Source of the DNA: Clostridia bacterium
Lineage (GTDB): Bacteria > Bacillota > Clostridia > Oscillospirales > Acutalibacteraceae
Assembly (NCBI GenBank): GCA_017516485.1
Contig: JAFXCH010000040.1
Span: 1-45,004, forward strand
Length of the DNA: 45,004 nt
Direction of reading: 5' to 3'
Shown: piece by piece, positions 1-22,731 of the stretch
Numbering within the stretch: position 1 is the stretch's first letter
Layout of the letters: each line of letters starts with the position of its first letter
The notes under the pieces: model-generated
What the model was told of the DNA's origin: nothing
Seen by the model: the letters and a program-made list of their open reading frames with translations, nothing else
Database searches by the model: none
Translations under genes and position numbers: made by a program

Positions 1-1440
1 AGCGACTGCCTTAGCTGCGTTGTAAGCTGCCTCGTAGCCGTCCCAGTTGGAGTACTTGTAGCTGTCTGCTACCGTTGCTTCGTATGCTGCGATAGCTGCA
101 TCGAGAGCTGTGTAGTCACAGTTGCCAAGCTCAACGAGAGCATCGATAGCGTCGTTGATAGCCTTAGCCATTGCGTCAACCTCAGCCTGCTTTGTGATGT
201 CGTAGCCTTCAACAACTGCTGCTACTGCATCGTTAACAGCCTCAACAGAAGCTGCTGTGTACTTGTCTGCATCGATAGCTGCTGCTGCATCCTTAGCTGC
301 ATCAACTGCTGAGTAATCAGCTGCCTTGAGCTTGAGAGCTGCAAATGCCTCGTTAATAGCTGCTGCTGCATTTGCTACTTCTTCGCGGTAATTTTCTGTA
401 TCAGGTTCGCCGTCGACACCATCGTATGTGTCGTTACCTGCTGTTACAGCTTCTTCCCATGCTGCCCATGTGTCAGCATCGTAGTTCTCTTCGCCGTATT
501 CGGGTGTAAGAGCAAGAGCTTCTTCAAGAGCTGTTCTGTCAACAAACTTGGGATCGCCAAGTGCGTTGTAAGCATCTGTAAGAGCCTCAGCTGCTGCGTC
601 GATCTTAGCCTGGTTTTCACCTGCTGCGTCAACGATCATATCGCGATCGATTGCGTCAGCTGCTGCAAGAGCATCCTGATATGCTGCCCATGCTTCTGCA
701 TCGTAGTAATCTTCGCCGTATGCAGGTTCAAGATTCAGAGCTTCTTCAAGCTTTGTGTAATCGCAGGGAACTTCGGGAGCTTCTGCAGAAGCAATATTAA
801 CTGTAAGTGTAGGAACATTAACTGTTTCTGCGAACAGTGATGTATATGATGCTGTATAAGCTGTGGAAGAGTCAGATATGGACTGTCTTATTTTACCAAA
901 TCTTGTGTTGCCTGTTTTGTAAATTGATTCTTCAGGCATAAAGATTTTTGCTGTGCCTTCTGTATCAGAAGCTTTAAATGTAAGTGTGTACAACAATTCA
1001 GGTGTTGTAAGAGCTTTGGGTTCTGTCTGGTAACCATCCTTTTCACGCTGTACATACACGCCGGTATGACCGGTTTTATAAGCTGAGGGGAATAAGTTTG
1101 TAGATGCAGGATTATTAATCGTCGGGTTAAACCAATCGTTAGCGAATGAACCTGCTGTAATGTCGGATAAGGTAAGGTTTGCATTTTCCCAAAGAATCAG
1201 TTCCAAACCACCGGGACCGACATAATAGTTGGTTTCAATATAAATTTTTACTGTAAATGTATCGCCGGGTTCAACATTGAGAACACCGTTTTCAGCGCCT
1301 TCTGCTTCAATAGTGTATGTCAATATCGAACCGGAAAATTCTGTAAGGGGAGTTGTTTCAGCATTAACAGCAACAGCTACTGAACCCAAAACAAGTGTCA
1401 ACGCTAAAAGGATACTAAATATCCTTTTGATTTTTTTCAT
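1..1440 (-). CDS. Secreted FIVAR-repeat protein with cohesin-like head (3' end cut by window edge)
   Basis: 480 codons are visible; the C-terminus lies beyond the left edge. The ATG at 1440 follows a GGAGG SD. Residues 1-27 (MKKIKRIFSILLALTLVLG...) are a signal peptide with an AVNAE cleavage site. Residues ~30-240 form a beta-rich domain (VEPGDTFTVKIYIETN, later KIFMPEES) that resembles cohesin-like modules and is related to the heads of the proteins starting at 16739 and 17928. From ~250 onward there are at least four Ala-rich FIVAR-like three-helix repeats, each opening with CDYT/ADYS/NCDYT. Such repeats usually form long surface stalks. The gene lies 74 nt downstream of the 3432-aa gene on the same strand, probably in its operon. 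The N-terminal fold and the function are inferred; whether a dockerin follows cannot be seen. Confidence 0.85.
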   Translation of the reverse strand, partial: MKKIKRIFSILLALTLVLGSVAVAVNAETTPLTEFSGSILTYTIEAEGAENGVLNVEPGDTFTVKIYIETNYYVGPGGLELILWENANLTLSDITAGSFANDWFNPTINNPASTNLFPSAYKTGHTGVYVQREKDGYQTEPKALTTPELLYTLTFKASDTEGTAKIFMPEESIYKTGNTRFGKIRQSISDSSTAYTASYTSLFAETVNVPTLTVNIASAEAPEVPCDYTKLEEALNLEPAYGEDYYDAEAWAAYQDALAAADAIDRDMIVDAAGENQAKIDAAAEALTDAYNALGDPKFVDRTALEEALALTPEYGEENYDADTWAAWEEAVTAGNDTYDGVDGEPDTENYREEVANAAAAINEAFAALKLKAADYSAVDAAKDAAAAIDADKYTAASVEAVNDAVAAVVEGYDITKQAEVDAMAKAINDAIDALVELGNCDYTALDAAIAAYEATVADSYKYSNWDGYEAAYNAAKAVA

Positions 1441-1466
1441 CGTCTATTTCCTCCTGTTTTTTGTTA

Positions 1467-1490
1467 CCCTGCCGCAATTAAGCGGCAGGG
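1467..1490 (-). other. Intercistronic stem-loop
   Basis: CCCTGCCGC and GCGGCAGGG form a perfect 9-bp stem with a 6-nt loop between the 3432-aa gene and the next gene. No T-run follows on the minus strand, so it looks more like an RNA-stabilising or processing hairpin than a terminator. It is preceded by CTAAATTAAA, also found before the hairpin at 17962-17988. Confidence 0.6.
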
Positions 1491-1514
1491 ATTTTAATTT
1501 AGTTTGCGGTTTAA

Positions 1515-4500
1515 TTATGCTCGTATATGATTGTTATTATATGTCTGATCAAGTTCCCAAATTGCAAGTGAATCGTAATCAATAATATATGCAAAGTCTT
1601 CAAGCTCTATTGTACCGTTGCAGTTGAGATCGCAAGCAAATACAAACGGATTCTTCATGCAATCAGGATCTTCTTCCTCGAAATATGTGTGATTATAATC
1701 AGTAAACGCATCATAGTTAAGGAAGTCAGCCTTATCTTCAAGTGTAACTAAACCGTCACCTGTATTATCACCGAAGATGACAATGTAGAAGGTTTCAAGA
1801 ACTTCACCTGTCTTGTTGTCAATAAGCTCTACCTTAGCGCCTGTACCAAGAACAGCGTTATTACCAACAAATGTGTATTCGAGACGTCCGTCGCCTTCAA
1901 TCTCAACATAACCCTGTTCTACAAGATCTGTAAGCTCTTCGACATATCCGTCAACAAGACCGTAGATGAAGCCACGCTCTCTATCGATGATAGTTGTTGA
2001 GCCTTCCTTAGCCTTGAGAACGATCGGAACTTCTGCTGTTTCAAGAGCATCGATAGCGTCGTTAAGAGCCTTAGCTGCTGCGTCGATTGTAGCCTGATCG
2101 TCGATTGTAAGATCCTTAGCGATGCCTGTTGCTGCTGTGTAAGCGTCAACTACATCTGCCCATGTTTCGGGTGTCCAATCGTCTGCATTGAGAGCATCTT
2201 TTCTTGCGATAGCTGCTTCAAGTGCGGAGTAATCAGCGCCCTTCTTCTGGAGCTTAGCAACTGCCTCTTCGATAGCTGCTGCCATTGCATCAACGTCAGC
2301 CTGCTTTGTGATGTCGAGGCCTTCAACAACTGCTGCTACAGCATCGTTAACTGCCTTGACGGAATCATCTGTGTATGTGTCGAGGTCAGCAGGAATCTTA
2401 TCCTTAGCTGCTTCAACTGCTGAGTAGTCAGCATCCTTATAAACGAGAACAACTGCATTAAGAGCATCTGCTGCTGCATCAATCTTGCCCTGGTTTACGC
2501 CTGCTTCGTCAGCGATCATATCATCGTCAACTGCCTTAGCTGCGTTGTAAGCTGCTTCGTACTCTGCCCAGTTAGCGTAGAGATCCTTATCTGCAAGCTT
2601 TGCTTCGTAGTCTGCAATAGCTGCATTAAGTTCTGTGTAGTCACAGTTGCCGAGGATTGTAAGGCTTTCATAAGCAACCTTAAGATCCTGTGCAAGCTTT
2701 GCTACTGCTTCTCTTACTTCTGCTGTATCGGGAGCACCGTCGTATGTTACGAGACCTGCCTTAGCTGCTTCGAGTGCTGCCTCATAAGCTGCCCATGAAT
2801 CAGGTGTGTAACGCTCGACTTCGTTTTCTATCTTGTCTTCGCCGTAAGCATCAACTGCTGCGTCGAGAGCGGAAAGGTCTGCGTAGATCTCATAGAGATC
2901 GGTGTATTCCTTAATGAGAGCCTCTGCTGCTGCGTCAATGATAGCCTGGTTAGCATCTGTGAGGTAGAGCGGCTCGCCCTCAAGGAGTGCCTTTGCTGCT
3001 GCAAGAGCTGACTTCCACTCAGCAACCTCTGCTGCATCGTAGTAATCTTCGTCTGCATCAAGCTCTGAGCAGTAGAGAACTGCCTTCTCGAGCTCGTCAT
3101 AATCACAGTAGCCTGTGATGAGCTTAAGACCGTTATAAGCATCTTCGAGATCCTGTGCAAGCTTTGCTACAGCTTCTCTTACTTCTGCTGTATCGGGAGC
3201 GCCGTCGTATTCTACAAGACCAGCCTTAGCTGCTTCAAGTGCTGCCTCATAAGCTGCCCATGTGTCTTCTTCGTAACGCTCAACTTCGTTTTCGATCTTG
3301 TCTTCGCCGTAAGCATCAACTGCTGCGTCGAGAGCTGAAAGATCTGCGTAGATCTCATAGAGATCGGAGTATTCATTGAAGAGAGCCTCAGCTGCTGCAT
3401 CAATGATAGCCTGGTTAGCATCTGTGAGGTAGAGCGGCTCGCCCTCAAGGAGTGTCATTGCCTCTGCAAGAGCTGCCTTCCACTCAGCAAGATCTGTTGC
3501 ATCGTAGTAAGCCTCGTCTGCATCAAGCTCTGAACAGTAGCGAACTGCCTTCTCGAGTTCCTCGTAATCGCAGTAGCCCTGGATAAGTACAAGACCGTTG
3601 TAAGCATCTTCGAGATCCTGTGCAAGCTTTGCAACAGCTTCTCTTATTTCTGCTGTATCGGGAGCGCCGTCGTATGTTACGAGACCAGCCTTAGCTGCTG
3701 CGAGAGCTGCCTCATAAGCTGCCCATGTGTCTGCTTCGTAACGCTCAACTTCGTTTTCAATCTTGTCTTCGCCGTAAGCATCAACTGCTGCGTCGAGAGC
3801 TGAAAGATCTGCGTAGATCTCATAGAGATCGTCATACTCTGCTGCAAGAGCATTTGCTGCGTTGTCGATGATAGCCTGGTTAGCGTCTGTCTTCTCAAGC
3901 TTCTCAGCTGCAACAAGTGCCTTAGCTGCTGCAAGAGCTGACTTCCACTCAGCAAGATCTGCTGCATCGTAGTAAGCTTCGTCTGCATCAAGATCTGAAC
4001 AGTAGCCGATTAATTCTTCAAGTTCGCTGTAATCACAGAATTCCTTATCAGCAAGAGCGTTGTAAGCATCTGTAAGAGCCTTAGTTGCTGCGTCGACCTT
4101 AGCCTGGTTTACACCTGCTTCGTCAGCGATCATATCGCGAGCAACTGCCTTTGCTGCATCGAGAGCTGCTGTGTAAGCGTTCCATGTTACTGTTGAGTAA
4201 GCATCTGCTGCCTTAGCGGGAACGAGAGCGATAGCTGCATCGAGTGCTGCGTAATCGCAGTTACCGAGAGGATCAAGAGCTGCTACTGCATCAGCAATAG
4301 CCTTAGCCATTGCGTTAACATCAGCCTGCTTTGTGATGTCAAGGCCTTCAACAACTGCTGCAACTGCATCGTTAACAGCCTTAACAGAAGCTGATGTGTA
4401 CTTGCCATCGTTGAGGTCAGCAGGAATTGTAGCCTTAGCTGCTTCAACTGCTGAGTAGTCAGCTGCCTTGTAAACAAGAACAACTGCGTTGAGTGCTGCT

Positions 4501-7500
4501 GTAGCGTTGTCGATAACTGCCTGGTTTGCACCGGCTTCGTCAGCAATCATATCACGAGCGACTGACTTAGCTGCGTTGTAAGCTGCCTCGTAGTCTGCCC
4601 AGTTAGTGTAGAGATCCTTATCAGCAAGCTTTGCCTCGTATGCTGCGATAGCTGCATCGAGAGCTGTGTAGTCACAGTTGCCAAGCTCAACGAGAGCTGC
4701 GATAGCGTCGTTGATAGCCTTAGCCATTGCGTCAACCTCAGCCTGCTTTGTGATGTCAAGACCTTCAACAACTGCTGCTACAGCGTCGTTAACAGCCTTA
4801 ACTGAAGCTGATGTGTACTTGGAAGCGTCAACTGCTGCTGCGGCTGCCTTAGCTGTGTCAACTGCGGAGTAGTCAGCTGCCTTGTAAACGAGAACAACTG
4901 CGTTGAGAGCTGCTGTTGCATCGTCGATAGCCTTCTGGTTTACGCCTGCCTCATCATTGTAGAGGTCACGAGCGATTGCCTTAGCTGCGTTGTAAGCTGC
5001 TTCGTAATCTGCCCAGTTAGCGTAGAGAGCCTTATCAGCTGCCTTTGTTTCGTATGCTGCGATAGCTGCATCGAGAGCTGTGTAGTCGCACTTGTTAAGC
5101 TTTGTAAGGCCTGTAACAGCTGCGTTAAGAGCTGCTGTTGCATCGTCGATAGCCTTCTGGTTAACACCTGCTTCGTCAGCGATGAGGTCACGTGCAACTG
5201 CCTGTGCTGCTGCAAGAGCATCGTTGTATGCATTAACAGAAGCGGATGTGCAGTTTGTTGTGTCAGCCTGTGCTGCTGCTGCGATAGCTGCATCAAGTGC
5301 TGTGTAGTCACAAGCGCCGAGCTTTGTAAGGCCTGTGATAGCTGCGTTAAGAGCTGCTGTTGCATCGTCGATAACCTTCTGGTTAACGCCTGCTTCGTCA
5401 GCAATCATACCGCGTGTAACTGCCTGTGCTGCTGCAAGAGCATCGTTGTATGCATTAACAGAAGCAGATGTGCAGTTTGTTGTATCAACTACTGTGCTGA
5501 TAGCTGCATCAAGTGCTGTGTAGTCACAGTTGCCGAGCTTTGTAAGGCCTGTGATAGCTGCGTTAAGTCTTGCTGCTGCTGCGTCAATCTTAGCCTGGTT
5601 TTCACCGGCCTTGTCAATGATAAGGTCACGCTCAACTGCATTTGCTGCTGCGAGAGCTGCGTTGAACTCTGCTACAGAAGCGGATGTGCAGTTTGTTGTG
5701 TCAGCATTTGCTGCTGCTTCGATAGCTGCATCAAGTGCTGCGTAGTCGCAAGGAATCTTTGCAACTTCAAGATTGTCGATAGCTGCATTAAGAGCTACTG
5801 CTGCAGCATCTACTGTAGCCTGATCGTCGATTGTGAGATCCTTAGCTATGCCTGTTGCTGCTGTGTAAGCGTCAACTACATCTGCCCATGTTTCGGGTGT
5901 CCAATCGTCTGCATTGAGAGCATCTTTTCTTGCGATAGCTGCGTTAAGAGCTGTGTAATCAGCGCTCTTCTTTGTCAGGCCGTTTGTTGCTGCAACAAGA
6001 GCTGTTGTAACAGCGTCAACATCAGCCTGATCTGAATACTTGGGAGCGGGAACAGTCTCACGCATTGCTACTGCATCTGCATAAGCTGCTTCATATGCTG
6101 CCAAAGAATTATCTGTGTATGTTGATTTGTCAACACCTGCGACCTTAGCGTCTGCTGCTGCGATAGCATTCTTAAGAGCTGTAAGGTCTGCATCGATTTC
6201 TTCAAGTTCGCTAACTGCTGTTGTAACTGCATCAATGTACTCGTAGATCTTATCCTGATCGCCGATCTTGAGGTTCCAGTTGATTGCTGCGAGAGCATTT
6301 GCAAGCTTTGTTCTTGAAGCTTCTGTGTACTTTTCGGGTGTTGTGTAGTAATCAGCGGGGATCTGCTCGATTTCCCAGTTGAGTTCGCCGTAGAGAGCGG
6401 GAAGGTTTGCAACAGCTGCGTTAAGAGCGTCTGCTGCAGCCTGAATATCTGCGTCGTCACGGATATCGAGTTCGCCTGCTGCGTACTTGTCAAGGAGAGC
6501 CTGTGCTGCCTGATACTTAGCATCTGCATCCTCATAAACATCAACGACACCGTCGCCGTCTGTATCTGTGGGATACTCAGCCTCGTAAGCATAGTAGTCA
6601 ACTGACATGTAGTTGCCTACTGCATCCTCAAGGGGAGTAATGTTAGCGTCAACAAATACGAGCTGTGCAATAGCTGCTTTAAGCTCTGCTTCCTTAGCGT
6701 CAACTTCAGCCTGATGCTGGATATCTACCTTGGGTTCTGCCATGTAGAATGCAAGAGCCTGGTTGTAAACTGCAAGGAAGTTAGTGTATGAGCCGGGTGT
6801 GTAAAGGTTCTGGTTGCTGATAACATTCTGACCGATTGTGATCTGGTCGTTGAGCTTGGAGTAGTCAGCATCCTTGAGAACAAGAGCATTGTATGCATTC
6901 TCAAGAGCCTCTACATAAGCGTCAACTTCATCCTGCTTTGTGATGTCAAGGTCCTTATTTACGTTTCCGACTGCTGCTTCAACGTCTGCCCAGTTTTTGT
7001 AGTCATCCTTTGTGGGTTCGAGTGCAGCAATCTTATCGAGCCATTCATCTACCTCGCTGTAGTCAGCGTCAAGGTAAACAAGACCTGTACGTGCATCGTA
7101 AACTTCCTGAGCGACAGCGTTAACTGTTACCTGCTCACCTGCCATGTAGCCGTTGTTATAAGCTGTGTCTACTGCTGCGCGAGCATCAAGAAGTCTCTGC
7201 CATGAATCTGCTGTGTAGTACTCAGCGTAATTATCTTCGTATTCTGCCTTGATACCCTGCTGCTCGAAAGCAAACTTGAAGTCTGCTTCGTTGACGTGGT
7301 TACCAAGTGAAGTGTAGATATAGTCGATATCGTCGTTAAGATCGTCAACCTCTTCCTGCTGAAGGATGTAGAGGCCTTCCTTCTTCTCGGCAATCAAATT
7401 ACGGAGCTGTTCAATTATTTCAGCCTCGTAGTAAGTGATTGTGTAGTTGTTTGCGGAGTTGGACGGGTCGATAACTTCAACAACTGTATCGATGTTCTGT

Positions 7501-11917: not shown

Positions 11918-11946
11918 ATTCTATCACGCTGTCAAACGCTTGTCAA
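11918..11946 (-). promoter_or_regulatory. Sigma-A-type promoter for the 3432-aa gene
   Basis: On the minus strand TTGACA (11941-11946), a 17-nt spacer, then TAGAAT (11918-11923), about 100 nt upstream of the GTG start. A second TTGACA/TATAAT pair overlaps it but has a 21-nt spacer. Confidence 0.7.
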
Positions 11947-12079
11947 TCGGTTATTTATTGTTTTTTATATTTATTATATATAAAAGTTTTCGACATTTGT
12001 TCACTTTATACAAATATATCGGATGCCTATTGAGCAAAGTGCCGATAAAGAAAATCTGGCGGTAAAAAAGCAAAAACAA

Positions 12080-12117: not shown

Positions 12118-12350
12118 CATTATTCCTCAGTGAAAAAATAACTGTTGGTAAATCTGTATTTAGTTGAACAAAACGGGGGGTTAATATACACTCTGCAGGT
12201 TGAAATATCCCCTCGATATAATCATACGGCAAATGGTCGTCAGAGGTGAAAGTTATATAATGTTAAACCACCCCTTTTGATAGGAGCTTTAGATAAACCA
12301 ATTTATAAAGATATTACAATAGGATGACTTGAAAGCCCCAATGCTTTTTC

Positions 12351-12379
12351 AGATTCTTCGCTGTCGCTCAGAATGACAT
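12351..12379 (-). repeat. Half copy of dispersed TGTCATTCTGAGCG palindrome
   Basis: On the minus strand this reads TGTCATTCTGAGCG followed by AGCGAAGAATCT. It matches the left half of the ~60-bp elements at 25998-26061 and 29989-30048; the right half is missing here. Confidence 0.65.
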
Positions 12380-12425
12380 TAAGTTTGTAGCGACGATTCA
12401 CAATTCTACCGCAATAAAAAGGAAA

Positions 12426-12453
12426 GCGCCCCAAGGCCGAAGCCTTGAGGCGC
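12426..12453 (-). terminator. Intrinsic terminator after the 1418-aa gene
   Basis: A 12-nt stem (GCGCCCCAAGGC with GCCTTGAGGCGC, one mismatch) closed by a tetraloop (TTCG on the minus strand). The minus strand continues TTTCCTTTTT. It lies 30 nt after the stop codon at 12483. Confidence 0.85.
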
Positions 12454-12482
12454 GGGGTTTAGTTTGGAGAAACTACAGTCAA

Positions 12483-15400
12483 TTAGGCAATTGTAACCTT
12501 AACATTACCTACGAACTCTGTGCCCCAACCTGCAGGTGTCTTAACTCTGAGGCTGATGTCACGGCTCTGAGAGAATGTTCTGGTGATTGTCCATGTGAGT
12601 GTACCGTCACCGTTATTTACTGCCTTGCTTGTTGTATAAGTAGATGTGCTACCACCGGGAAGTACAAACTGAACCTTAGTAACAGTTGTGTCAGTAATAA
12701 CCTTGAATGTAACTACCTCACCCTTTGCTGCTGTTACTTCAGTAGCGTCAACATACTCACCAACAGATGCTGTGAAGGACTCTGCCTCTGCGCTGTACTC
12801 ATCGTACTTAACTGCAAATGCATAAGCCTCTGTATCCCATACGTAGTCGTACTTAGCTCTTACTGTGTACTCTTCCTCAGAGAGAGCAAGCTTGATTGAC
12901 CATACTTCGTATGCGGGATCTTCGTTTGCGTAGTCAACAACTTCACCGTTTGCATTGTAGGAAACGATTGTAACGTTTGTGCTACGTCTGTCGTATGTTC
13001 TTGTGCTGCCACCAGCAGAGATGATCTGGATCTTTGAGGGAGCACCGTTTGCTGTGAATGCATACTCAAGATATGCCTTAGCGTAAACGCCTTCTGAATC
13101 GTAATCAACTGCTGTGATGTTAGCCTGGTTGATCTTAAGAGCATTGAATGCTGCTGTGAGAGCTGCTGCTGCTGCATCGATCTTAGCCTGGTTTGCGCCA
13201 GCCTCGTCAGCAAGGAGATCACGAGCGATTGCCTCAGCTGCTGCCTTAGCGTCTGCATATGCTTCCCATGTAAGAGCTGTGTATGCGTCTGCATCCTCAG
13301 CGGGAACAAGTGCAAGAGCTTCGTCGAGAGCTGTGTAATCACATGCTTCAAGATCAACAAGAGCTGCGATAGCATCGTTGATAGCCTTAGCCATTGCGTC
13401 AACCTCAGCCTGCTTTGTGATGTCAAGACCTTCAACAACTGCTGCTACAGCGTCGTTAACAGCCTTAACAGAAGCTGATGTGTACTTAGTTGCGTCGATA
13501 GCTGCTGCTGCATCCTTAGCTGCATCAACTGCTGAGTAGTCAGCTGCCTTGTACTCAAGAACAACTGCTGTGAGAGCTTCTGCTGCATCGTCGATGATTG
13601 TCTGGTTTACACCGTCTTCATCAGCGATCATGTCACGAGCGACTGCCTTAGCTGCGTTGTAAGCTGCCTCGTAGTCTGCCCAGTTAGCGTAGAGGTCCTT
13701 ATCTGCAACCTTTGCCTCGTATGCTGCGATAGCTTCATCGAGAGCTGTGTAGTCACAGTTGCCAAGCTCAACGAGAGCTGCGATAGCGTCGTTGATAGCC
13801 TTAGCCATTGCGTCAACCTCAGCCTGCTTTGTGATGTCGTAGCCTTCAACAACTGCTGCTACAGCGTCGTTAACAGCCTTAACAGAAGCTGCTGTGTACT
13901 TGTCTGCATCGATAGCTGCTGCTGCATCCTTAGCTGCATCAACTGCTGAGTAGTCAGCTGCCTTGTAAGTAAGAACAACTGCATTGAGAGCTGCTGCTGC
14001 ATCGTCGATTGCCTTCTGGTTTGCACCAGCTTCATCAGCGAGCATGTCACGAGCGATTGCCTTAGCTGCTGTGTAAGCTGCCTCGTAATCTGCCCAGTTA
14101 GTGTAGAGATCCTTATCTGCAACCTTTGCCTCGTATGCTGCGATAGCTTCATCGAGTGCTGTGTAGTCACAGTTGCCGAGAGCCTTAACGCCTGCGATAG
14201 CTGCAAGAAGCTCTGCCTCTGCTGCATCTACAGCGTCCTGAGTTGCGTTAGCGTCTGCATAAACTGCGTTAGCCTCTGCAAGCTCTGCCTCGTATGCTTC
14301 CCATGTTGCTGCGATAGCCTTATCTTCTGCAACTGCGGGAAGTGTATCAATAGCTGCCTTAAGAGCTGCCTTGTCAGCAAGCTCAACAAGCTTAGCTGCT
14401 GCTGCTTCAAGAGCTGCGATAGCGTCTGCTACTGCTGCTGCGGAAGCGTTAGCGTCTGCATAAACGGTCTCTGCTGAGCCGATAGCGTTTTCAAGACCTG
14501 CTGCTGTCCAAGAAGCGGGTGTGTAATCAGCCTGATCGAGAGCCTTAGCTGCTGCGATAGCATCAGCAAGAGCGCCCTTATCAGCCTTCTTCTCGAGCTT
14601 AGCCTCTGCTGCCTCGATAGCTGCAACTGCATCTGCAACTGCTGCTGCTGTTGCGTTATCGTCTGCATTTACTGTGTTAGCTGCTGCAAGAACTGTAGCG
14701 AGGTCTGCTGCTGCCCAAGAATCGGGTGTGTATGCGTCTGCATCAAGAGCTGTTGCGCGAGCGATAGCTGCTACAAGAGCTGCCTTGTCAGCCTTAGCTG
14801 CAAGGAGTTCAATTGCTGCTTCAAGATCTGCTGCTGCTTCGTCGAGAGCTGCCTGATCGTATGCTGCAACTGCTGCGTCCTTAGCTGCTTCTGCTGCAGC
14901 CTTAGCTGCCTCATATGCTGCTACGGAGTTGGGTGTGTATGCGGAAGTGTCAGCGGGAACCTTAGCAACTGCTGCGTTCCATGCTGTGTAATCAACTGTC
15001 TTCTCAACGAGAGCGAAGTTGTTAAGTGCTGCTGCTGCGTCGTCGATAACCTTCTGGTTAGCGCCTGCTTCGTCAGCGATCATGTCACGAGTAACAGCCT
15101 TAGCTGCCTCGTAGAGAGCTGTGTAATCAGCCCAGTTTGCGTACTTGTAGCTGTCTGCTGCCTTTGCTTCGTATGCTGCGATAGCTGCATCGAGTGCTGC
15201 GTAATCACATGCGCCGAGCTTTGTAAGGCCTGTGATAGCTGCGTTAAGAGCTGCTGTTGCATCGTCGATAACCTTCTGGTTAACGCCTGCTTCGTCAGCG
15301 ATCATATCGCGTGCAACTGCCTGTGCTGCTGCAAGAGCATCGTTGTATGCCTTAACAGAAGCAGATGTGCAGTTTGTTGTATCAACTACTGTGCCGATAG

Positions 15401-16739
15401 CTGCATCAAGTGCTGTGTAGTCACAGTTGCCAAGCTTTGTAAGGCCTGTGATAGCTGCGTTAAGAGCTGTTGTTGCTGCGTCGATAGCGCCCTGCTCTGT
15501 AGCAAGTGTGCCTTCAACGTTGAGAGCCTCTGCTGCTGCAAGAGCATCGTTAAGAGCCTTTACAGAAGCGGATGTGCAGTTAGCTGTGTCAGCTGCCTTA
15601 GCTGCTGCGATAGCTGCCTGGAGAGCGGAGAGATCAGCCTTAGCTGCCTCTGTTGTTGTTTCGTCAGTTGAGGGCTCGTCGGGCTCAACTGAACCAGCTG
15701 AACCAACAATAATCTTTGTATCCTGAACATCCCAAACCTTATCGGTTACTGTGCCGTCAGAATATGTTACACGATCCTTGTAGCCGGGAAGGTTAGCACC
15801 GGGTGTAACCTGAGGCATAGAGGGATCATAGTTAGCGCCATTCTCAACATTGTAAAGAACCTGTACGAATGTTGTGGGCTTAGCGCCTGCGTACTCGTAG
15901 AGATAGGACTCTTCGGGAATGAAAAGATCAGCAACGTCGCCGTCTTTTGCGGAAGCATCAACTGTAAGGTTGAATGCTACGAGAGGCTGGTAGCAGTTAA
16001 GAACTGTAGCATAGCTACCCCATGCCTCGTCACCGGATGCAGAGTAACCTGCACCACACTGGTAAACATTGTACTTAAGGTTGTTGCTTTCATCAAGGAT
16101 GTCAGGGTTTGTCTTGCTGTACCAGTTAGCAGCTGTAGTACCTGTGCCCTGCCATGTGGGGGGAAGAACTGCCTTAAGACCACCATAGGAGTTGTGGTTT
16201 GACTGAAGCTTTGAGTATGTGAGAGCTTCGTTTGAGAATACGGGGTACTCGAATGTACCGTCGCCTGTGCCCCAACCATCAAATTCTTCAATTGTGAAGA
16301 AAGCTGTCTTGTTAACGGTTGCGGGGCTAGTAGCCTTCATTGAGAATGTTGAGTAGTCAACACCTGTGGGGAGAAGCCATGCATTTGAGTATGCAGGTGT
16401 GATCTGCATATTGTATACATGGAAGTTTGTCTGGCCCCAAAGCTCAACACGAAGAACGTCGCCTGCTGCAACATTAACATCGTTAGTGTCGTTGTTAGCA
16501 TTTGAGTCTTCGATGAGTTTGTAGGAACCATCTGTTACATTGACCTTGTAAACCTTAAAAGCAAGTTTTACTTTATAAGGATTGTTTACAGGGTCAAAGT
16601 TTGCACAATCATCTGCGGTAAGGGTGGGAACATCGGGATCAAGCTGAAATTCGCCTTCAGCGTTAACACCGACCGCAACCATACCGAGAAGCATTGCTGC
16701 TGCAAGCAAGAAAGCAAGCAGCTTCTTTGTAAGTTTCAT
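12483..16739 (-). CDS. Secreted 12-repeat FIVAR protein with cohesin-like head, no dockerin
   Basis: 1418 aa, ATG at 16739 with an AAGGAGG SD. Signal peptide 1-28 (ends VGVNAEG). Residues ~30-350 are a beta-rich domain (VAAGDVLRVELWGQTNF, then FIPEESYLYEY) similar to the head of the protein starting at 1440. Residues ~365-1205 hold 12 FIVAR-like repeats; several carry paired Cys residues (NCDYTALDAAI and TTNCTSASV). Residues ~1206-1418 are two related beta domains, each with a GGST-x-TY motif. No dockerin, LPXTG or transmembrane tail is visible, so it must be secreted freely or held by other means. It is 64 nt downstream of the 374-aa gene and probably co-transcribed with it. The role as extracellular stalk or adhesin is inferred. 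Confidence 0.88.
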   Translation of the reverse strand: MKLTKKLLAFLLAAAMLLGMVAVGVNAEGEFQLDPDVPTLTADDCANFDPVNNPYKVKLAFKVYKVNVTDGSYKLIEDSNANNDTNDVNVAAGDVLRVELWGQTNFHVYNMQITPAYSNAWLLPTGVDYSTFSMKATSPATVNKTAFFTIEEFDGWGTGDGTFEYPVFSNEALTYSKLQSNHNSYGGLKAVLPPTWQGTGTTAANWYSKTNPDILDESNNLKYNVYQCGAGYSASGDEAWGSYATVLNCYQPLVAFNLTVDASAKDGDVADLFIPEESYLYEYAGAKPTTFVQVLYNVENGANYDPSMPQVTPGANLPGYKDRVTYSDGTVTDKVWDVQDTKIIVGSAGSVEPDEPSTDETTTEAAKADLSALQAAIAAAKAADTANCTSASVKALNDALAAAEALNVEGTLATEQGAIDAATTALNAAITGLTKLGNCDYTALDAAIGTVVDTTNCTSASVKAYNDALAAAQAVARDMIADEAGVNQKVIDDATAALNAAITGLTKLGACDYAALDAAIAAYEAKAADSYKYANWADYTALYEAAKAVTRDMIADEAGANQKVIDDAAAALNNFALVEKTVDYTAWNAAVAKVPADTSAYTPNSVAAYEAAKAAAEAAKDAAVAAYDQAALDEAAADLEAAIELLAAKADKAALVAAIARATALDADAYTPDSWAAADLATVLAAANTVNADDNATAAAVADAVAAIEAAEAKLEKKADKGALADAIAAAKALDQADYTPASWTAAGLENAIGSAETVYADANASAAAVADAIAALEAAAAKLVELADKAALKAAIDTLPAVAEDKAIAATWEAYEAELAEANAVYADANATQDAVDAAEAELLAAIAGVKALGNCDYTALDEAIAAYEAKVADKDLYTNWADYEAAYTAAKAIARDMLADEAGANQKAIDDAAAALNAVVLTYKAADYSAVDAAKDAAAAIDADKYTAASVKAVNDAVAAVVEGYDITKQAEVDAMAKAINDAIAALVELGNCDYTALDEAIAAYEAKVADKDLYANWADYEAAYNAAKAVARDMIADEDGVNQTIIDDAAEALTAVVLEYKAADYSAVDAAKDAAAAIDATKYTSASVKAVNDAVAAVVEGLDITKQAEVDAMAKAINDAIAALVDLEACDYTALDEALALVPAEDADAYTALTWEAYADAKAAAEAIARDLLADEAGANQAKIDAAAAALTAAFNALKINQANITAVDYDSEGVYAKAYLEYAFTANGAPSKIQIISAGGSTRTYDRRSTNVTIVSYNANGEVVDYANEDPAYEVWSIKLALSEEEYTVRAKYDYVWDTEAYAFAVKYDEYSAEAESFTASVGEYVDATEVTAAKGEVVTFKVITDTTVTKVQFVLPGGSTSTYTTSKAVNNGDGTLTWTITRTFSQSRDISLRVKTPAGWGTEFVGNVKVTIA

Positions 16740-16772
16740 TGCTGTAGTCCTCCTTGAGAATTTTTTTAATTT

Positions 16773-16790
16773 AGCCGCATAAAAGCGGTT
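16773..16790 (-). other. Intercistronic stem-loop
   Basis: AGCCGC with GCGGTT (one G-T pair) and a 6-nt loop. On the minus strand it is followed by CTAAATTAAAAAAA and then the SD of the 1418-aa gene. It is weaker than the hairpins at 1467 and 17962 but in an equivalent position. Confidence 0.4.
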
Positions 16791-16803
16791 AGATTACATT
16801 TTT

Positions 16804-17928
16804 TTAATATGCAGGTGTATGTGTCTGCATATCAAGTGTCCATTCTGCTGCGTAGTTGTAAATATCGGAAAGAAGCGAAAGGTCAATAACATCTATTGAA
16901 GCAGATGTAGCAAGATCAGCATAAATATCTGCTGCATAGTAAGCTGCACCTTCCATTTCGACGTTATAGTTGTAAATATCACTGAGCATACCGATATCAA
17001 TAACATTAACGGTACCGTCTCCATCAAGATCACCGAAGAATATGATTTCGTACTCGGCGTATTTTGCACCTGTACTGTCATAAACTGTTACGGTTGTGCC
17101 TGTAGCAAAGAGCTCACTGGAAACCTCGTATGTGCCGTTATTAACAACAAACTGATCTCTGAAATCTCCGCCGTTGCTTACGATTGCTGTTGCATCGAAG
17201 CCACAGAGATATTGAGTTTCATCGCCGTCAAAAGACATAAGCTTTACGCTGAAACCATCTGCTGCTACAAGCTCGGGCTCGACGTAAGCACCGCCGATTC
17301 TGAAGCTTACAGCATCAGCAAAAGTGAAATTAAAGGGAGTTGCTGAATTGTAGTAGGTGAGAGGATCGGAGGGATCGCTGACACCTGAATAATAATAACC
17401 GTCGTAGTCTGCGGGGATAAGAACAGTACCTGTGCCTGTTGCTGTATCCTTAACCTTCAGCTGTACAGTAAAGCAATCTGCTGCAACACCTGAATTGAAT
17501 ACTGCGACGCCGCCGTCTGCCGTACCGCCTGCAACCCACTGGATGCCGATGACACTATGAGTAGCTGCGTAAGCAGAGGGGATAAAGCTTGAATCAGTAG
17601 TAGTTGTTGTTGTACCTGCAGCTGCCGTTACATTATCGATAGGTGATGTAACGCTGCCGTCAACAAGCTCAAAAAAGTCTGTTGAGTAAAGGATGGGCCA
17701 GAACATTGTAATTGCATTATAGTTGTTCGAAAGACGAACAGTAAATGTAACAACATCGCCCGGCTCAACCGAATCGACAGAAGCTGCGAGACCGATGCTC
17801 ATTGCTTCGTTACCTGTAGGAGTGCCGCCGAATGAAGAATCGATAGCACTGCCGCCGAAGCCGAAGCAAGAAACGAGCAGAGAAGCAACAACAATAACCG
17901 CTGCAAACTTTTTAAATGTCTTAGTCAT
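16804..17928 (-). CDS. Small secreted cohesin-like plus dockerin protein
   Basis: 374 aa, ATG at 17928 preceded by a short SD-like AAAGGGGG. Signal peptide ~1-29. Residues ~40-225 read as a cohesin-like beta sandwich: SVEPGDVVTFTVRLSN, then YSTDFFELVDG, and later FTVQLKVKDTATGTGTV. Residues ~230-300 are the beta module that precedes dockerins in this cluster. The dockerin (~301-365) has one standard calcium loop (DLDGDGTVNVID) and a degenerate second (DLATSASIDVID), each followed by LLSDIYNY-type helices. Having both a cohesin-like and a dockerin module makes it a possible adaptor between the larger neighbours. It sits between them in one operon. The cohesin assignment is by pattern only. Confidence 0.85.
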   Translation of the reverse strand: MTKTFKKFAAVIVVASLLVSCFGFGGSAIDSSFGGTPTGNEAMSIGLAASVDSVEPGDVVTFTVRLSNNYNAITMFWPILYSTDFFELVDGSVTSPIDNVTAAAGTTTTTTDSSFIPSAYAATHSVIGIQWVAGGTADGGVAVFNSGVAADCFTVQLKVKDTATGTGTVLIPADYDGYYYSGVSDPSDPLTYYNSATPFNFTFADAVSFRIGGAYVEPELVAADGFSVKLMSFDGDETQYLCGFDATAIVSNGGDFRDQFVVNNGTYEVSSELFATGTTVTVYDSTGAKYAEYEIIFFGDLDGDGTVNVIDIGMLSDIYNYNVEMEGAAYYAADIYADLATSASIDVIDLSLLSDIYNYAAEWTLDMQTHTPAY

Positions 17929-17961
17929 CGTGTAGCCCCCTTTGGGTAAAGAGTGAGTGTT

Positions 17962-17988
17962 TCGGAGAGGTCATAGGGACCTCTCCGA
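17962..17988 (-). other. Intercistronic stem-loop
   Basis: TCGGAGAGGTC and GACCTCTCCGA form an 11-bp perfect stem with a 5-nt loop. There is no T-run on the minus strand, so read-through into the next gene is likely. CTAAATTAAA lies just before it, as before the hairpin at 1467. Confidence 0.6.
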
Positions 17989-18009
17989 TTTAATTTAGGT
18001 TAGGACAGA

Positions 18010-21000
18010 TTAAAACTCAAGAGAACCTGTGAATGTACCGTCCTGAGGAATTGCGTAGGGATCAACTGCCCAGTTGTAACAGTCGGAAAGAGCACCGATA
18101 TCAACAGTATCTACCATGTTGTCGTATACGATGTCAGCACCGTAGAAGTAAGCGTTGTTGGGCTCACTATAGTCGGACATCCAGTTGTACATATCGGAAG
18201 CCATACCAATATCGATACCATCGATTACGCCGTCACCTGTAGCATCGCCGAAGATAACAAGGTAGTAAATTGTACCATCATCAAGGACGATATAGTCGCC
18301 TGTTGCGAGTGCACCTGCTGCATTATTTTCGTTTGCAACATACTCGTATGATGCACCACCCTGTGTACCGATAATTGTTTCGATACCATCATAGTAGTCT
18401 AAGATGAGACCTGCGATGTAGTTAACATCATTACCGTCTGCATCCTGTGAAGCCATAACATCACTAATGGGTGCCCATGTGTAGCCGTAGTTTTCTTCAA
18501 GGCCTGCATAGCTACCGAGCTCAGAAACGTCCTTAATAACGATGCCTGCCTCGAGACGCTCAAGGCCTTCGAGAGCTGCGATAAGGTCTGCTGCTGCTGC
18601 GTCAACGATACCCTGGCCGTCTTCAGCGAGGAGGTTTCTGTCAACAGCGAGTGCTGCTTCATATGCTGCCTCGAGAGCTTCGATGCCTGCATACTTCTCT
18701 GCATAGTTATCTTCTGCGAAGATAGCGTCTGCTGCTGCGATAGCTTCATCAAGCTGTGTATAGTCTGCGGGATCTGAGCCCTTAACTGTAAGACCCTTGT
18801 AAGCCTGGATGAGCTCACGACGAGCTACGTTGATCTTGGACTGACGAAGCTCAGCGTAGTTTGTATCTGCACGAACTTCCTCTGCAAAATCAAGAGCTGT
18901 TTCAAGAGCTGTCCAAGACTCTTCTGAGTAATCCTCGGGATTGAGGTCAAAGTACTTATCGCTGATAAGGTTGTATGCGTTGTTGAGGTAGTTCTTAGAA
19001 GCTGCTGTAACTTCCTTACGGATGAGACGGTCAGCGTTCATGTTGAACATATGGCCTCTGTAAGTAATCTCGAAGAGTGTAAGAGTGGGGATGTTTGCAA
19101 CTGCTTCTTCGTAAGCCTTGATTTCTTCCTCTGTTGCATCCTCACCGGGCTCCTCAACGATCTGAGAGTTGATGAGAGACTTAACTCTGTCTCTGTGTGT
19201 CTTATATCTGTTGTATGTGTAGAGAACGTAGTCAGCATCTGCGAAGAATGTATAACCATCATCTGTGTATACAAGGCCTTCGTTGTTGCCTTCGATTGCT
19301 TCAAGATCCTCAACGAGAGAATCAACGCCTGCGCCTTCAGCACATGCATCGAGGTCTGCGATAGCTCTTGAGAGGTTCTCTGCTGCTGCCTCATAAACGG
19401 TTGCATCGAATGTATCCATTCTCTGGGGCTTAAGAACGATAGCCTGTGCAGCTGTAAGAGCATTGAGGTAGTTATCCCATGCTGTTGCAGCGTTTACAGT
19501 GTAAGTTGTTTCGTTGCCGTCTTCATCCTTCTCAACGTATGTGAATGTACCGCTGGAAGCGAAGTTGTTCTCCTGGCGGTTTGAACCAAGAGCAGAGGAA
19601 ACGATATTGGGAAGGTTGTAGTCGTTGTAGACATAGAGCTTACGAGCAACTGTGAACTGAACTGCACCCATACCTGTCCATGTCTCGGAAACGTTGAGTG
19701 TAAGAGCAAAGTCATATACGCCTGCACAATCCTCAAGAGGCATATCTTCCTGATACTCGTTGCCGTTCTTATCTGTAACTGTTACCTGAGGAACATTTAC
19801 ATCGAAGAAGTCAACTGAACCGAAGTAACCACCCTGCTGAGTAGAGATGGGCTGGAAGTCTGCATCGGGAACGAGAACGCCTTCTGCAGTTGTCTCGAAC
19901 TTAACGAATGTTGTTACAGCGTCAATGTTCTGTGTATTTCCTTCTGTTGTTGTACGGCCGTAATCGAAGCTGAGATCGCGGATAGCGCCCCAACCCTCAG
20001 ATGAACCGATGAATGCTGCGGGAGCATTTGCGATGTAGTGGTTGTTAACACCACCGTTATCGCCGTAACCGTCAACCCAAACAATGGGGAATGCTTCGAG
20101 ACCGTTTGCTGTCTGCTGCATCTCATAGGAGATAGCGTCTGCATCTTCATCAGAAACCTGAGAAGCAACATATGTGAACTGATATGTTGTAATAGGCTCT
20201 GATGTAAGTGACTCACCGTACTCGTTAAGGATTTCGTATGTAACTGCGAAACGAACGAGACCGTCAGCTGAAAGGGCACCTGTTACGGGGAAGGTCTTAG
20301 CCTCACCACCGTTAAGGAGTGTGTCAGCTGTGTAAGTAACAGCAACAGCTGAGTTGTTTGTTGTGATGCTCTTGATTTTGATCTGATAAAGAGCATCCTG
20401 ATGGAAGTTGCCGTCCTTATCGGTGTAACCTGTGTTAACACCTGTGGAGTTGTTACGAACAACGAACTCTGTACCGGAAAGTGTACGAGTTGAGCTGATG
20501 ATTACGTCTTCGTAATCGATTGTGGGATCTTCAAGTTCCTGATCGCCTGTAAGACCAAGGATCATGTTAACAAGGGGAAGAGCACCGGGGATAAGGTTCT
20601 CACGAACTGTGTAGAGACCGGAAAGAAGGCCCTTGATGATATCGCCGAGAACCTGGTTTGTAGCGATAGAATCGAAGTTTGTAAGACCGGCGGGAATAGC
20701 ACCGGGGATAATTGCGTTAAGGATATTGGTAACAAGGTTGATAAGCACGTTGGACATTGTGCCGTTAAGACTACCTGTTGAGTTTCTGTCGAATATATCG
20801 AAGATGTGCTCAATTTTGAGGTCAAGGATGTTACCAAGGATGAAGTCAAGAAGAAGGAACTTAGAACCTGTAACAGGAGCATCCTCTACCTGACCGTTGT
20901 CGTTAACGACACGAAGGTTCTCGGGAAGCCAGTTGAGGGGGATAAGTGTGAAGAGAACTTCGTCAAGCTTCTGCCATGCAGTAGCGTTGGGATCAATCTG

Positions 21001-22731
21001 GCTTGTGTAGTAAAGGATACCGCCGTAGTTCTCAAGTGCCCAGTCAACTGCCCAAGAGATTGTCTCTTCGAAGTCGAGGCCTGCGGGAATGTTCATGTTT
21101 GTGAAAGCGTTAGCATAGTATCTTGCAACGATAGTAAGAACTGCCTGCCAGCCTTCGTCAGTCGCAGGGTTAAGCTCACCGGACTGAAGCTTTGCATAAA
21201 CATTCTCTTCGGGAACAAGGTCAGCGATAAGCTCGCAAAGTGCGAAAGCAAGAATCTCGCGGACTGTGTCAGCTGAATCGGGAAGAAGGATGTTATCTGC
21301 ATATCTTGCGATAGCGTCCTTACCGAAGAAGACAACTGCATCGTTAAGAGTTGCCATAGCATCGATTTCTTCGTCAGAAGGAATTGTGATGTATTCGCTA
21401 AGGAATCTCTCGCCGTAAATCTTGAGAAGCTTCTTAGCATTGTTGAAGAGGTTTGTGATGATCATGTCGTTGGAGCCTGCTTCCCAAACGAGGTCGGGAG
21501 ACTTAGCTGTAACCATGACATCGAGCCACTCTTTAAGAATGTTGTTGAAGTTTGTGAAGAACTGCTCGCCGGGCTTGAAGTCGTGCTCAGGAATTACATA
21601 GTTGAGGTTGATAACGTCTGCAAGCTCGTTGAATGTGCCGTTCTCCATATTGGTCTCGTATACGCTCTTTGCGTTTGCATCAAAGATGTATGGAGCCTTG
21701 CGGAGATTCTGGAAGTACTCTGTATCATCCATATAGTAACCAACCTTTACAAGGACAGGTGTGCCGTCCTCATTGAAGAGCTGGTTGCCGTCTGCATCAT
21801 ACTCGTATCTGTAGATCTTCTGAGACTCGTCATACTCTGCCTCAGCAAGGTCATAGATCCATTCCTTGATCTTTGTGTTACCCCACGGAACGAGGAAGTT
21901 GTTATAAGCGTACTGAAGAACGCCTTCAAACTGATCGTAGAAGGAACCGTTGTCGATATCGATAACGTTGGAGAAGTCGTATGTAATGCCATACTCAAAA
22001 GACTCTTCAAGCTCATCCTCGAGGTCGATGAGGAGATCATCGACGATTATCTGGAGCATCTCGTCGACTGTGGGCTTAACAGCGAGATCCTCGTACTCAA
22101 CGTAGTTGGGATCATCATCGTCGTAAGCGAGGTCGTAGAGAAGGCCTCTGATGAGGTTGGGAGCATCAAGGTACTCTGCAACAGAGTCGCCAAGAAGACC
22201 TGTAAGTGTGGGGCCAAGGTCAAGTGTGCCGTAGCCGTACTTAGCAAGAAGGGAGCTGTTGTCGTTAACGAATGCAAGAACTGAGTAAAGAACGTCAACG
22301 TCGGACTTGCCGGGTGTTGTTCTTCTGCAGCCGTTAGCAGCAAAGTTACCATCGGGGTTTGTGTTCAGAGCTGCGAATGAGAGCTCTTTACCGACTTCAC
22401 CTGCGATAGACTCAACTGTGTTCCAAACACCGCCGTTGTAGATATCTTCAAGTGAGTCAAGTGCTGTGTCGATGCTTGAGTAGTCGAGTGTAACGTTGAG
22501 GACAGGGATTTTGATTGAAGTCTCATCCAAGTCTGAAAGCATTGCGTCGATAGCATCGAGTGCGATTGAAGCAAGCTGTTCTGTTGTGAAGATCGGCTTG
22601 TCAATGCTGTCGTACTGTGTGATAGCATCGTCCTTATAATCTGCGTATGCTGCCTCTACGCCAATGGCGAAGGTCGAGAATACCATGATCATAGCAAGGA
22701 ACAAGCTAAGGAGTTTTTTGGAATTACTCAA
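18010..22731 (-). CDS. Large secreted helical protein with FIVAR repeats and dockerin
   Basis: 1573 aa from a TTG at 22731. The SD GGAGG sits 8 nt before this TTG but directly abuts the in-frame GTG at 22740, so TTG (MSNSKKLLSLFLAMIM...) fits better. Signal peptide ~1-28. Residues ~30-760 are a mostly helical region I do not recognise. Residues ~770-1110 look like beta sandwich modules. Residues ~1120-1440 hold three or four FIVAR-like repeats. Residues ~1440-1573 are the shared pre-dockerin module and a dockerin with a normal first loop (DATGDGVIDGID) and a degenerate second (DIVYDNMVDTVD). It is the first gene of the D-C-B unit, behind a ~290-nt leader. Function unknown; probably extracellular. 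Confidence 0.87.
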   Translation of the reverse strand: MSNSKKLLSLFLAMIMVFSTFAIGVEAAYADYKDDAITQYDSIDKPIFTTEQLASIALDAIDAMLSDLDETSIKIPVLNVTLDYSSIDTALDSLEDIYNGGVWNTVESIAGEVGKELSFAALNTNPDGNFAANGCRRTTPGKSDVDVLYSVLAFVNDNSSLLAKYGYGTLDLGPTLTGLLGDSVAEYLDAPNLIRGLLYDLAYDDDDPNYVEYEDLAVKPTVDEMLQIIVDDLLIDLEDELEESFEYGITYDFSNVIDIDNGSFYDQFEGVLQYAYNNFLVPWGNTKIKEWIYDLAEAEYDESQKIYRYEYDADGNQLFNEDGTPVLVKVGYYMDDTEYFQNLRKAPYIFDANAKSVYETNMENGTFNELADVINLNYVIPEHDFKPGEQFFTNFNNILKEWLDVMVTAKSPDLVWEAGSNDMIITNLFNNAKKLLKIYGERFLSEYITIPSDEEIDAMATLNDAVVFFGKDAIARYADNILLPDSADTVREILAFALCELIADLVPEENVYAKLQSGELNPATDEGWQAVLTIVARYYANAFTNMNIPAGLDFEETISWAVDWALENYGGILYYTSQIDPNATAWQKLDEVLFTLIPLNWLPENLRVVNDNGQVEDAPVTGSKFLLLDFILGNILDLKIEHIFDIFDRNSTGSLNGTMSNVLINLVTNILNAIIPGAIPAGLTNFDSIATNQVLGDIIKGLLSGLYTVRENLIPGALPLVNMILGLTGDQELEDPTIDYEDVIISSTRTLSGTEFVVRNNSTGVNTGYTDKDGNFHQDALYQIKIKSITTNNSAVAVTYTADTLLNGGEAKTFPVTGALSADGLVRFAVTYEILNEYGESLTSEPITTYQFTYVASQVSDEDADAISYEMQQTANGLEAFPIVWVDGYGDNGGVNNHYIANAPAAFIGSSEGWGAIRDLSFDYGRTTTEGNTQNIDAVTTFVKFETTAEGVLVPDADFQPISTQQGGYFGSVDFFDVNVPQVTVTDKNGNEYQEDMPLEDCAGVYDFALTLNVSETWTGMGAVQFTVARKLYVYNDYNLPNIVSSALGSNRQENNFASSGTFTYVEKDEDGNETTYTVNAATAWDNYLNALTAAQAIVLKPQRMDTFDATVYEAAAENLSRAIADLDACAEGAGVDSLVEDLEAIEGNNEGLVYTDDGYTFFADADYVLYTYNRYKTHRDRVKSLINSQIVEEPGEDATEEEIKAYEEAVANIPTLTLFEITYRGHMFNMNADRLIRKEVTAASKNYLNNAYNLISDKYFDLNPEDYSEESWTALETALDFAEEVRADTNYAELRQSKINVARRELIQAYKGLTVKGSDPADYTQLDEAIAAADAIFAEDNYAEKYAGIEALEAAYEAALAVDRNLLAEDGQGIVDAAAADLIAALEGLERLEAGIVIKDVSELGSYAGLEENYGYTWAPISDVMASQDADGNDVNYIAGLILDYYDGIETIIGTQGGASYEYVANENNAAGALATGDYIVLDDGTIYYLVIFGDATGDGVIDGIDIGMASDMYNWMSDYSEPNNAYFYGADIVYDNMVDTVDIGALSDCYNWAVDPYAIPQDGTFTGSLEF

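Follow-up and report, generated by a model that had tools for sequence, protein, structure and literature searches.

Gene cluster at the left end of the contig

The window analysed here is an entire contig, C54 (45,004 bases), of a Clostridia bacterium whose genome comprises 2.17 Mb in 65 contigs and is 90.7% complete. Its minus strand carries five long open reading frames (ORFs), termed P5-P4-P3-P2-P1 in reading order, which encode proteins with cohesin-like heads, dockerin tails or both. Each of the five has a signal-like start by eye, and the proteins are read as secreted. The original prediction of five adjacent minus-strand genes for secreted proteins was thus confirmed for the ORFs and their place, with the signal-like starts judged by eye. 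The features of the cluster are as follows; repeats were counted with a hidden Markov model (HMM) built from the window's own repeats, and lengths are in amino acids (aa).

1..1440, minus strand: P1 gene, first 480 aa; frame open to base 1
766..1362, minus strand: P1 cohesin-like head, aa 27-225 (hhalign to cohesins and to P4 heads)
1..765, minus strand: P1 FIVAR-type repeats, four in the window, the last one cut (own-repeat HMM)
1515..11813, minus strand: P2 gene, 3432 aa (ORF)
10764..11678, minus strand: P2 calcineurin-like phosphoesterase domain (PF00149, 6.3e-9, aa 46-230 matched)
2058..8333, minus strand: P2 repeats, 23 FIVAR-type, between aa 1161 and 3252 (own-repeat HMM; FIVAR 5.4e-29)
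1554..1769, minus strand: P2 dockerin, code B (tail profile, helix comparison)
12483..16739, minus strand: P3 gene, 1418 aa (ORF)
15690..16661, minus strand: P3 head, P1-head homologue with a weak direct cohesin match (hhalign)
13152..15638, minus strand: P3 repeats, 12 FIVAR-type (own-repeat HMM)
12486..13145, minus strand: P3 C-terminal immunoglobulin (Ig)-like modules, labelled by eye, alignable with those of P1 (alignment A8)
16804..17928, minus strand: P4 gene, 374 aa, cohesin-like head and dockerin (ORF, adaptor layout)
17263..17850, minus strand: P4 cohesin-like head (hhalign to cohesins)
16849..17031, minus strand: P4 dockerin, code A (tail profile, helix comparison)
18010..22740, minus strand: P5 gene, 1576 aa, with an N-terminal part of ~1000 aa without assigned fold, three repeats and a dockerin (ORF)
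18061..18246, minus strand: P5 dockerin, code A (tail profile, helix comparison)

P1 is truncated at 480 aa because it lies at the end of the contig. The P1-strand end of the contig and the beginning of contig C19 have 37 bases in common; on C19, a 1062-aa frame has further repeats, which complete the split one, and an Ig-like end that can be aligned with the C-terminal end of P3. Beyond P1, C19 carries a frame of ~210 aa and then a prfB-like gene (by eye), and a prfB-like gene likewise lies beyond P1 in the related genome G003. In G001, the P1 neighbour is another gene, whose homologue is found ~11 kb further along C19. As judged from these sequences, the rest of P1 very probably lies on C19. 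P1 orthologues in relatives have 908-1238 aa.

The repeat arrays predicted for four proteins were found in P2 (23 repeats), P3 (12) and P1 (4 in the window), while P5 has three divergent repeats and no long array. Pfam FIVAR scored above its curated cut-off in P1, P2 and P3; P5 reached 14.5 bits (cut-off 29.2). The FIVAR count of P2 ranged from 5 to 23 across seven sequences (that of G001 partial; counts in relatives may be low with the HMM of the window), as spacers do. The N-terminal part of P5 had no Pfam match, the only one in the protein being the sub-threshold FIVAR, and the best match of its profile to the PDB was unconvincing (0.84).

The phosphoesterase motifs of P2 (TDIQ, GDN, GNHD and GHDH) were kept in all six P2 sequences that hold the region, including our own. 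The set is therefore not purely structural, and that description was dropped. The original prediction had seen no glycosyl hydrolase, and Pfam showed none in the dockerin proteins, but it had overlooked this phosphoesterase. A match of alignment A8 (C-terminal parts of P1 and P3) to PDB hexosaminidases (4.9e-7) was not read as an enzyme, because it falls on A8 positions 32-101, which by eye are a FIVAR repeat at its start.

Cohesin-like heads

Pfam cohesin had no match in the own genome even at an expectation value (E) of 10. In sequence-profile searches of the PDB, P1 heads matched nothing, P3 heads gave a weak match to a metalloprotease stretch (0.71), and no cohesin was found. Profile-profile comparison was made with 30 Pfam-positive cohesins collected from the order. 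The heads matched this reference at 1.7e-8 (P4), 1.2e-6 (P1-type) and 0.0045 (P3). The reversed-cohesin controls gave 0.027, 0.052 and 0.41, respectively, and four non-head profiles gave 0.027 or worse. Between the heads, hhalign gave 1e-8 for P1 against the P4 alignment and 5.1e-9 for P3 against P1 (over 77 columns); P3 against P4 was weak (9.3e-4, probability 22%). Pfam Cohesin appeared at E up to 10 in five of nine P4 sequences (best 0.0041), the window's own P4 not among them. We take the P4 and P1 heads as cohesin homologues from these profiles, and the P3 head as one through P1. Of the three cohesin-like N-terminal heads in the original prediction, two were hence found by profile-profile comparison and that of P3 only indirectly.

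With the P4 and P1 profiles (the P3 profile was not run), the own genome showed one head per protein and no tandem heads. No P1-head relative was found in the viral contigs scanned. In the sample of the order, 107 of 245 genomes had Pfam cohesin matches above the cut-off; two such matches are in G007, a member of the own genus.

Dockerin tails in the cluster and elsewhere in the genome

A dockerin profile was built from 15 tails. The best PDB match was a chain named 'Serine protease' (1.8e-8), chains named as dockerin or scaffoldin adaptor followed from 5.5e-7, and EF-hands of the calmodulin type from 1.8e-4. Pfam on single window sequences found a dockerin in P4 alone, below cut-off (0.008). 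The second calcium loops of the P4 and P5 dockerins are degenerate by eye. The expectation of at least three dockerin ends was borne out with this profile (P2, P4 and P5).

At E up to 0.01, the profile matched seven proteins of the own genome: P2, P4, P5 and proteins on contigs C4, C55, C57 and C12, which carry FIVAR and InlB-type repeats, a Big_3 domain, BspA-type leucine-rich repeats (LRRs) and a subtilase domain. A Pfam glycosidase domain was found in none of the seven (E up to 0.1 for P2, P4 and P5; up to 0.01 for C4, C12, C55 and C57). As the genome is ~91% complete, dockerin-bearing enzymes may be missed.

The first recognition helix of the C4, C12, C55 and C57 dockerins has a common pattern, DxNDxF. 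By this helix, these dockerins are a third class apart from P4/P5 and P2. Between own C4 and G001 C38, the dockerin of this class is identical at 51 of 64 positions, and partly similar ones occur in G002, G004, G008 and G010. In the first recognition segment, these two agree at 11 of 15 positions, the same as P5, and P4 and P2 at 6 of 15. On this comparison, we gave up the view that variability is clearly lower in the third class. Own C4:52075-59873 (L025) holds a second two-gene set, namely a 1539-aa protein resembling the N-terminal part of P5 and one of 1042 aa in which FIVAR and InlB-type repeats are combined with a cohesin-like stretch and a dockerin. G001 C38 holds a comparable gene pair.

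Recognition codes of the dockerins

Symmetric dockerin repeats are taken as a sign of a dual binding mode (PMC5301203). The stretch compared begins at loop position 9 and ends with the eleventh residue past D12. Because these helix segments were delimited, by means of the conserved D at loop position 12, with the alignment already in view, their choice was not a blind one. We excluded the P4 of G006 from the covariation tests, as the contig end truncates its second repeat; in other respects, G006 is almost a copy of G005.

The two repeats of each dockerin resembled each other within a species more than across species: 0.48 versus 0.30 for P2 (2 of 5040 permutations, observed included), 0.56 versus 0.25 for P4 (1 of 5040) and 0.53 versus 0.25 for P5 (4 of 40320). 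This held without G006 (P2 1 of 720, P5 2 of 5040). Symmetric recognition residues, the feature of the dual binding mode, are thus present in P2, P4 and P5 as repeats that covary by species.

The recognition helices of P4 and P5 covaried as well. Their identity was 0.495 within species and 0.249 across, and only the observed pairing itself reached this value (1 of 5040 permutations, seven species). The best match of P4 was the P5 of its own species in six of seven rows. For the 16 upstream residues together with loop positions 1-8, the corresponding values were 0.321 and 0.326 (3422 of 5040); this control was done for the P4-P5 test only and not for the repeat-to-repeat test. The code of P2 was independent of that of P4 (420 of 720) and P5 (650 of 720) in six species. 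Two codes imply two protein receptors, one common to P4 and P5 and one for P2. P1 and P3 are the natural receptor candidates because they have heads and no dockerins.

Conservation in relatives

P4 orthologues were found in 8 of the 11 genomes of the genus (own included), and P5 adjoins P4 in all eight. The P1 head was found in 7 of 11, and in six of the six that are at least 90% complete. In G003, G004 and G007, the five genes lie on one contig in the order P5-P4-P3-P2-P1. The set is split over two contigs in G001, where P2 was seen in part at the edge of the fetched stretch. In G010, the contig ends after P4. G002, G008 and G009 (77-86% complete) were searched for P4 and the P1 head only, and neither was found. 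The co-occurrence of the genes, which had been put forward as a check, was collinear in most genus members examined.

Two genes occupy the place of P3 in G005: P3a (556 aa, P3-type head and dockerin) and a 1507-aa protein with two P1-type heads. In G006, P5-P4 stand at one contig end, and a two-headed protein, P2 and P1 lie on another contig; a P3-type gene was not seen there. The tandem heads of these ~1500-aa proteins lie at L078:12930-14135 (G005) and C26:334-1500 (G006), and those of G005 are nearly identical to each other. The layout of the two-headed protein is scaffoldin-like as far as its sequence tells.

In G269, which belongs to another genus, a P4-like protein (30% identical over part) adjoins a P5-like one that ends in a dockerin. 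In G353, of the same genus as G269, a P5-like gene has as its neighbour a truncated frame that matches the P1 head. Eight named loci were found with P4; they came from uncultured Clostridia or Oscillospiraceae, and five of them bore goat, sheep or water-deer hindgut names.

Divergence of heads and dockerins

The identity of our sequences to G001 and G003, respectively, was 33/37% for the P1 head, 55/53% for the P3 head and 92/86% for the P4 head. The dockerins reached 44/43% (P2), 60/53% (P4) and 65/64% (P5), the N-terminal part of P5 85/87% and the phosphoesterase 93% (G003 only). The ratio of non-synonymous to synonymous rates (dN/dS) between own and G003 was 0.39 for the P1 head, 0.42 for the P3 head and 0.09 for the P4 head, and no computable ratio exceeded 1. 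The pair G004-G007 pointed in the same direction but more weakly (P1 head 54%, P3 head 51%, P4 head 63%, dockerins 44-55%).

The pattern in the trio of own, G001 and G003 fits fast receptors paired with fast ligands. The most diverged modules in the trio are the P1 head and the P2 dockerin, followed by the P3 head with P4/P5. From these rates alone, our guess would be that the P1 head pairs with the P2 dockerin and the P3 head with the dockerins of P4 and P5.

Transcription and genomic neighbourhood

The genes are separated by 81 (P5-P4), 64 (P4-P3), 669 (P3-P2) and 74 bases (P2-P1). The following signals were found in the long gap:

12426..12453, minus strand: terminator-like hairpin between P3 and P2 (12 pairs, 9 G-C, T-rich tail)
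11918..11946, minus strand: promoter-like site before P2 (TTGACA-17-TAGAAT, 11/12)

In the region, 18 terminator-like sites were found versus 10.9 expected, and 19 promoter-like sites versus 16.6 expected. Plus-strand hairpins with T-runs sit in both short gaps P5-P4 and P4-P3. We infer two transcripts from these sequences, P5-P4-P3 and P2-P1.

The window also contains dnaA and dnaN (names by eye), separated from the cluster by a noc-rsmG-mnmG block. This block adjoins the cluster in G001, G003 and G007 as well. It is not beside the cluster in G004, G005 and G006, whose constant neighbour there is metK. The stretches fetched from relatives did not reach dnaA. The predicted origin linkage accordingly stands for the window with its dnaA and dnaN, while the noc-rsmG-mnmG neighbourhood is missing at the cluster in these three relatives.

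A gene of 601-671 aa, Wzz/kinase-like by eye, lies between the php-type phosphatase gene and P5 in G003, G004, G005 and G006; it is not listed in the window (22741-23703), nor in G001 and G007. An S-adenosylmethionine (SAM) riboswitch lies upstream of metK at 25751-25849. At 34119-34354, a 76-base unit is repeated in ~3 copies (90% matches) between mnmE and mnmG (names by eye) and overlaps the listed start of mnmG. Another secreted protein, with a Big_2 domain, begins at the right end (43707-45002) and is cut by the contig end.

Interpretation

We consider it probable that the products of the five genes form a secreted cohesin-dockerin assembly at the cell surface, distinct from a cellulosome and using two codes that change fast. 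P1 and P3, with heads and no dockerin, would serve as receptors; their FIVAR arrays would be spacers of variable length, and the Ig-like ends may anchor them to the envelope. P4 and P5 would dock by one code and P2, bearing the phosphoesterase, by the second, and both codes would change between species along with the receptors. The own head of P4 would make it an adaptor, perhaps for the third-class dockerins, whose carriers elsewhere in the genome are a subtilase, an LRR protein and two further repeat proteins. The adaptor role proposed earlier for the 374-aa protein agrees with its one cohesin-like head and one dockerin. The pairing of heads with dockerins, the anchoring and a role in adhesion or as a surface coat are our inference from the sequence. 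The original prediction of a cohesin-dockerin surface assembly rather than an ordinary cellulosome gains from the collinear genes, the cohesin homology of P4 and P1, the helix covariation and the lack of a Pfam glycosidase domain in the seven dockerin proteins; the weak direct match of P3 detracts from it.

Several results weigh against this interpretation. The P3 head matched cohesins directly only at the level given above. Nine head-bearing stretches were scanned, and Pfam Cohesin exceeded its cut-off in one of them, the neighbour of the P4 homologue in L079 (E 1.7e-7). For the P4-like protein of G269, Pfam gave a dockerin but, at E up to 1, no cohesin. The 1042-aa protein of C4 contains a fourth cohesin-like stretch (5.7e-7). 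Because of this stretch, and because the genome was searched with the P4 and P1 heads only, there may be further receptors; the C4 stretch also ended the notion that three codes correspond to exactly three heads. With clades collapsed, the P4-P5 test comprises four lineages (1 of 24). G005 is an exception, in that its P4 and P5 helices differ (0.15) and its P4 resembles the neighbouring P3a. The two closest genomes, G005 and G006, show no such contrast in rates (P1 head 84%, P4 head 87%, P2/P5 dockerins 90/95%; dN/dS 0.24 and 0.47 for the P1 and P4 heads, respectively); the P4-head slice of G006 is shifted. Synonymous divergence (dS) was higher in heads and dockerins than in the N-terminal parts of P2 and P5, so recombination may add to the divergence. 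Finally, no wall anchor was seen in the five proteins.

As for anchoring, no LPXTG-type end was seen by eye in the five proteins (the end of P1 lies on another contig), and SLH domains had no match at E up to 0.001 in the own genome. Not all S-layer proteins carry an SLH domain. The genome encodes two sortases. A short hydrophobic, possibly amphipathic C-terminal stretch was noted by eye in secreted proteins on own C4 (1539 aa), C24, C55, C57 and C19 (410 aa), and such a stretch might be an anchor.

A degradative complex of the cellulosome or mucinolysome kind is unlikely in our view, though it has several points in its favour. In this case, dockerin enzymes (the P2 phosphoesterase and the subtilase) would attack host or plant polymers such as mucin, with the FIVAR repeats as glycan-binding spacers. 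P2 does carry a phosphoesterase, the subtilase has a dockerin-like end, and the hindgut names of five of the eight named P4 loci fit such a habit. Limousia is reported to have a mucin-degrading cohesin-dockerin complex with dockerin-bearing carbohydrate-active enzymes (CAZymes) and peptidases (PMC12997984), and FIVAR has been proposed as carbohydrate-binding (PMC7846122). NCBIfam families with glycosidase names also appeared below threshold (HypBA2 in P1 and P3, LnbX in P3), far below the curated cut-offs and within repeats. The absence of Pfam glycosidases from all seven dockerin proteins of a ~91% complete genome, and of tandem heads from the same genome, speaks against it. The proteins could also be independent long adhesins of the Ebh/Embp type, whose heads bind host or food ligands and whose likeness to cohesins and dockerins is an inherited fold only. 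Long FIVAR arrays are known in adhesins (PMC7846122), and the P1 and P3 heads diverge fast in one trio, as ligand-binding or antigenic domains can. This we find quite improbable, as the P4-P5 covariation confined to the helices and the covariation of the repeats point to shared protein receptors.

The species-wise likeness of the P4 and P5 dockerins could further be due to gene conversion between neighbours, without a common receptor. The genes are adjacent, and identical codons at identical residues exceeded expectation in the P4 repeats (38 of 59 versus 29.5), in the P5 repeats (38 of 53 versus 26.7) and between P4 and P5 (119 of 193 versus 95.4, z 3.5, six species, pairs not independent). 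All these counts exclude G006, and the P4/P5 count excludes G005 as well. Because of this excess, some gene conversion or DNA copying is possible, which again tells against the proposed assembly. Yet similarity was not raised in the strand and calcium-loop residues just before the helices, and the P2 repeats covary too, with no codon excess (20 of 35 versus 18.8 expected). As the whole explanation, gene conversion therefore appears very improbable.

Comparison with known systems

The proposed assembly shares with the cellulosome (Ruminococcus, Clostridia) the cohesin-dockerin modules, an adaptor with both modules and the symmetric dockerin repeats. Cohesin-type receptors (P4 and P1; P3 indirectly) and duplicated calcium-loop dockerins were recognised from sequence. 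It differs in that no dockerin-bearing glycosidase that would degrade plant polymers was found (none of seven with a Pfam domain), that one head per protein and no multi-cohesin scaffoldin was seen in the species, and that long FIVAR arrays are present. The enzyme domains among the dockerin proteins are a phosphoesterase and a subtilase, and dockerin-bearing mucin-degrading CAZymes as in a mucinolysome were not among them. In Clostridium perfringens, FIVAR adjoins dockerin. The modules there are on glycosidases; here, they are on repeat proteins without such domains. The giant FIVAR adhesins Ebh/Embp are not known to have cohesin or dockerin. Their long FIVAR arrays (more than 40 repeats according to PMC7846122) are a common feature with the present set.

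C. perfringens is also alike in having non-cellulosomal cohesin-dockerin pairs (PMC12997984). The same source describes the Limousia mucinolysome, which likewise combines gut bacteria, a cohesin-dockerin complex and dockerin-bearing peptidases; its own features are tandem-cohesin scaffoldins, dockerin CAZymes and a scaffoldin with a sortase motif, and the word FIVAR does not occur in the main text (PMC12997984). P4, with apparently one cohesin-like head and one dockerin, resembles a monovalent adaptor scaffoldin, a term used in PMC11557425, but its set lacks enzymes of the usual kind. The connectors would work as in the three closest systems, namely the cellulosome, the Limousia mucinolysome and the pairs of C. 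perfringens, but the enzyme features by which those are defined were not found here. No such set was described in the literature on FIVAR, cohesin, dockerin, phosphoesterase and surface layer, biofilm or matrix, as covered by titles and abstract openings, with subscription journals mostly outside the coverage.

Species-specific codes, two orthogonal ones that each change jointly in several proteins of a self-assembling network, could mean that only proteins of the same species join a shared coat, so that kin and non-kin would be told apart in the gut; we regard this extension as distinctly doubtful. Cohesin-dockerin assembly is known mostly from enzyme complexes. If the proposed reading is true, the linking of long repeat proteins by cohesins and dockerins would extend such assembly to surface architecture. 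The recognition helices, which covary between proteins and differ between species, would then be a natural series of orthogonal connector pairs.

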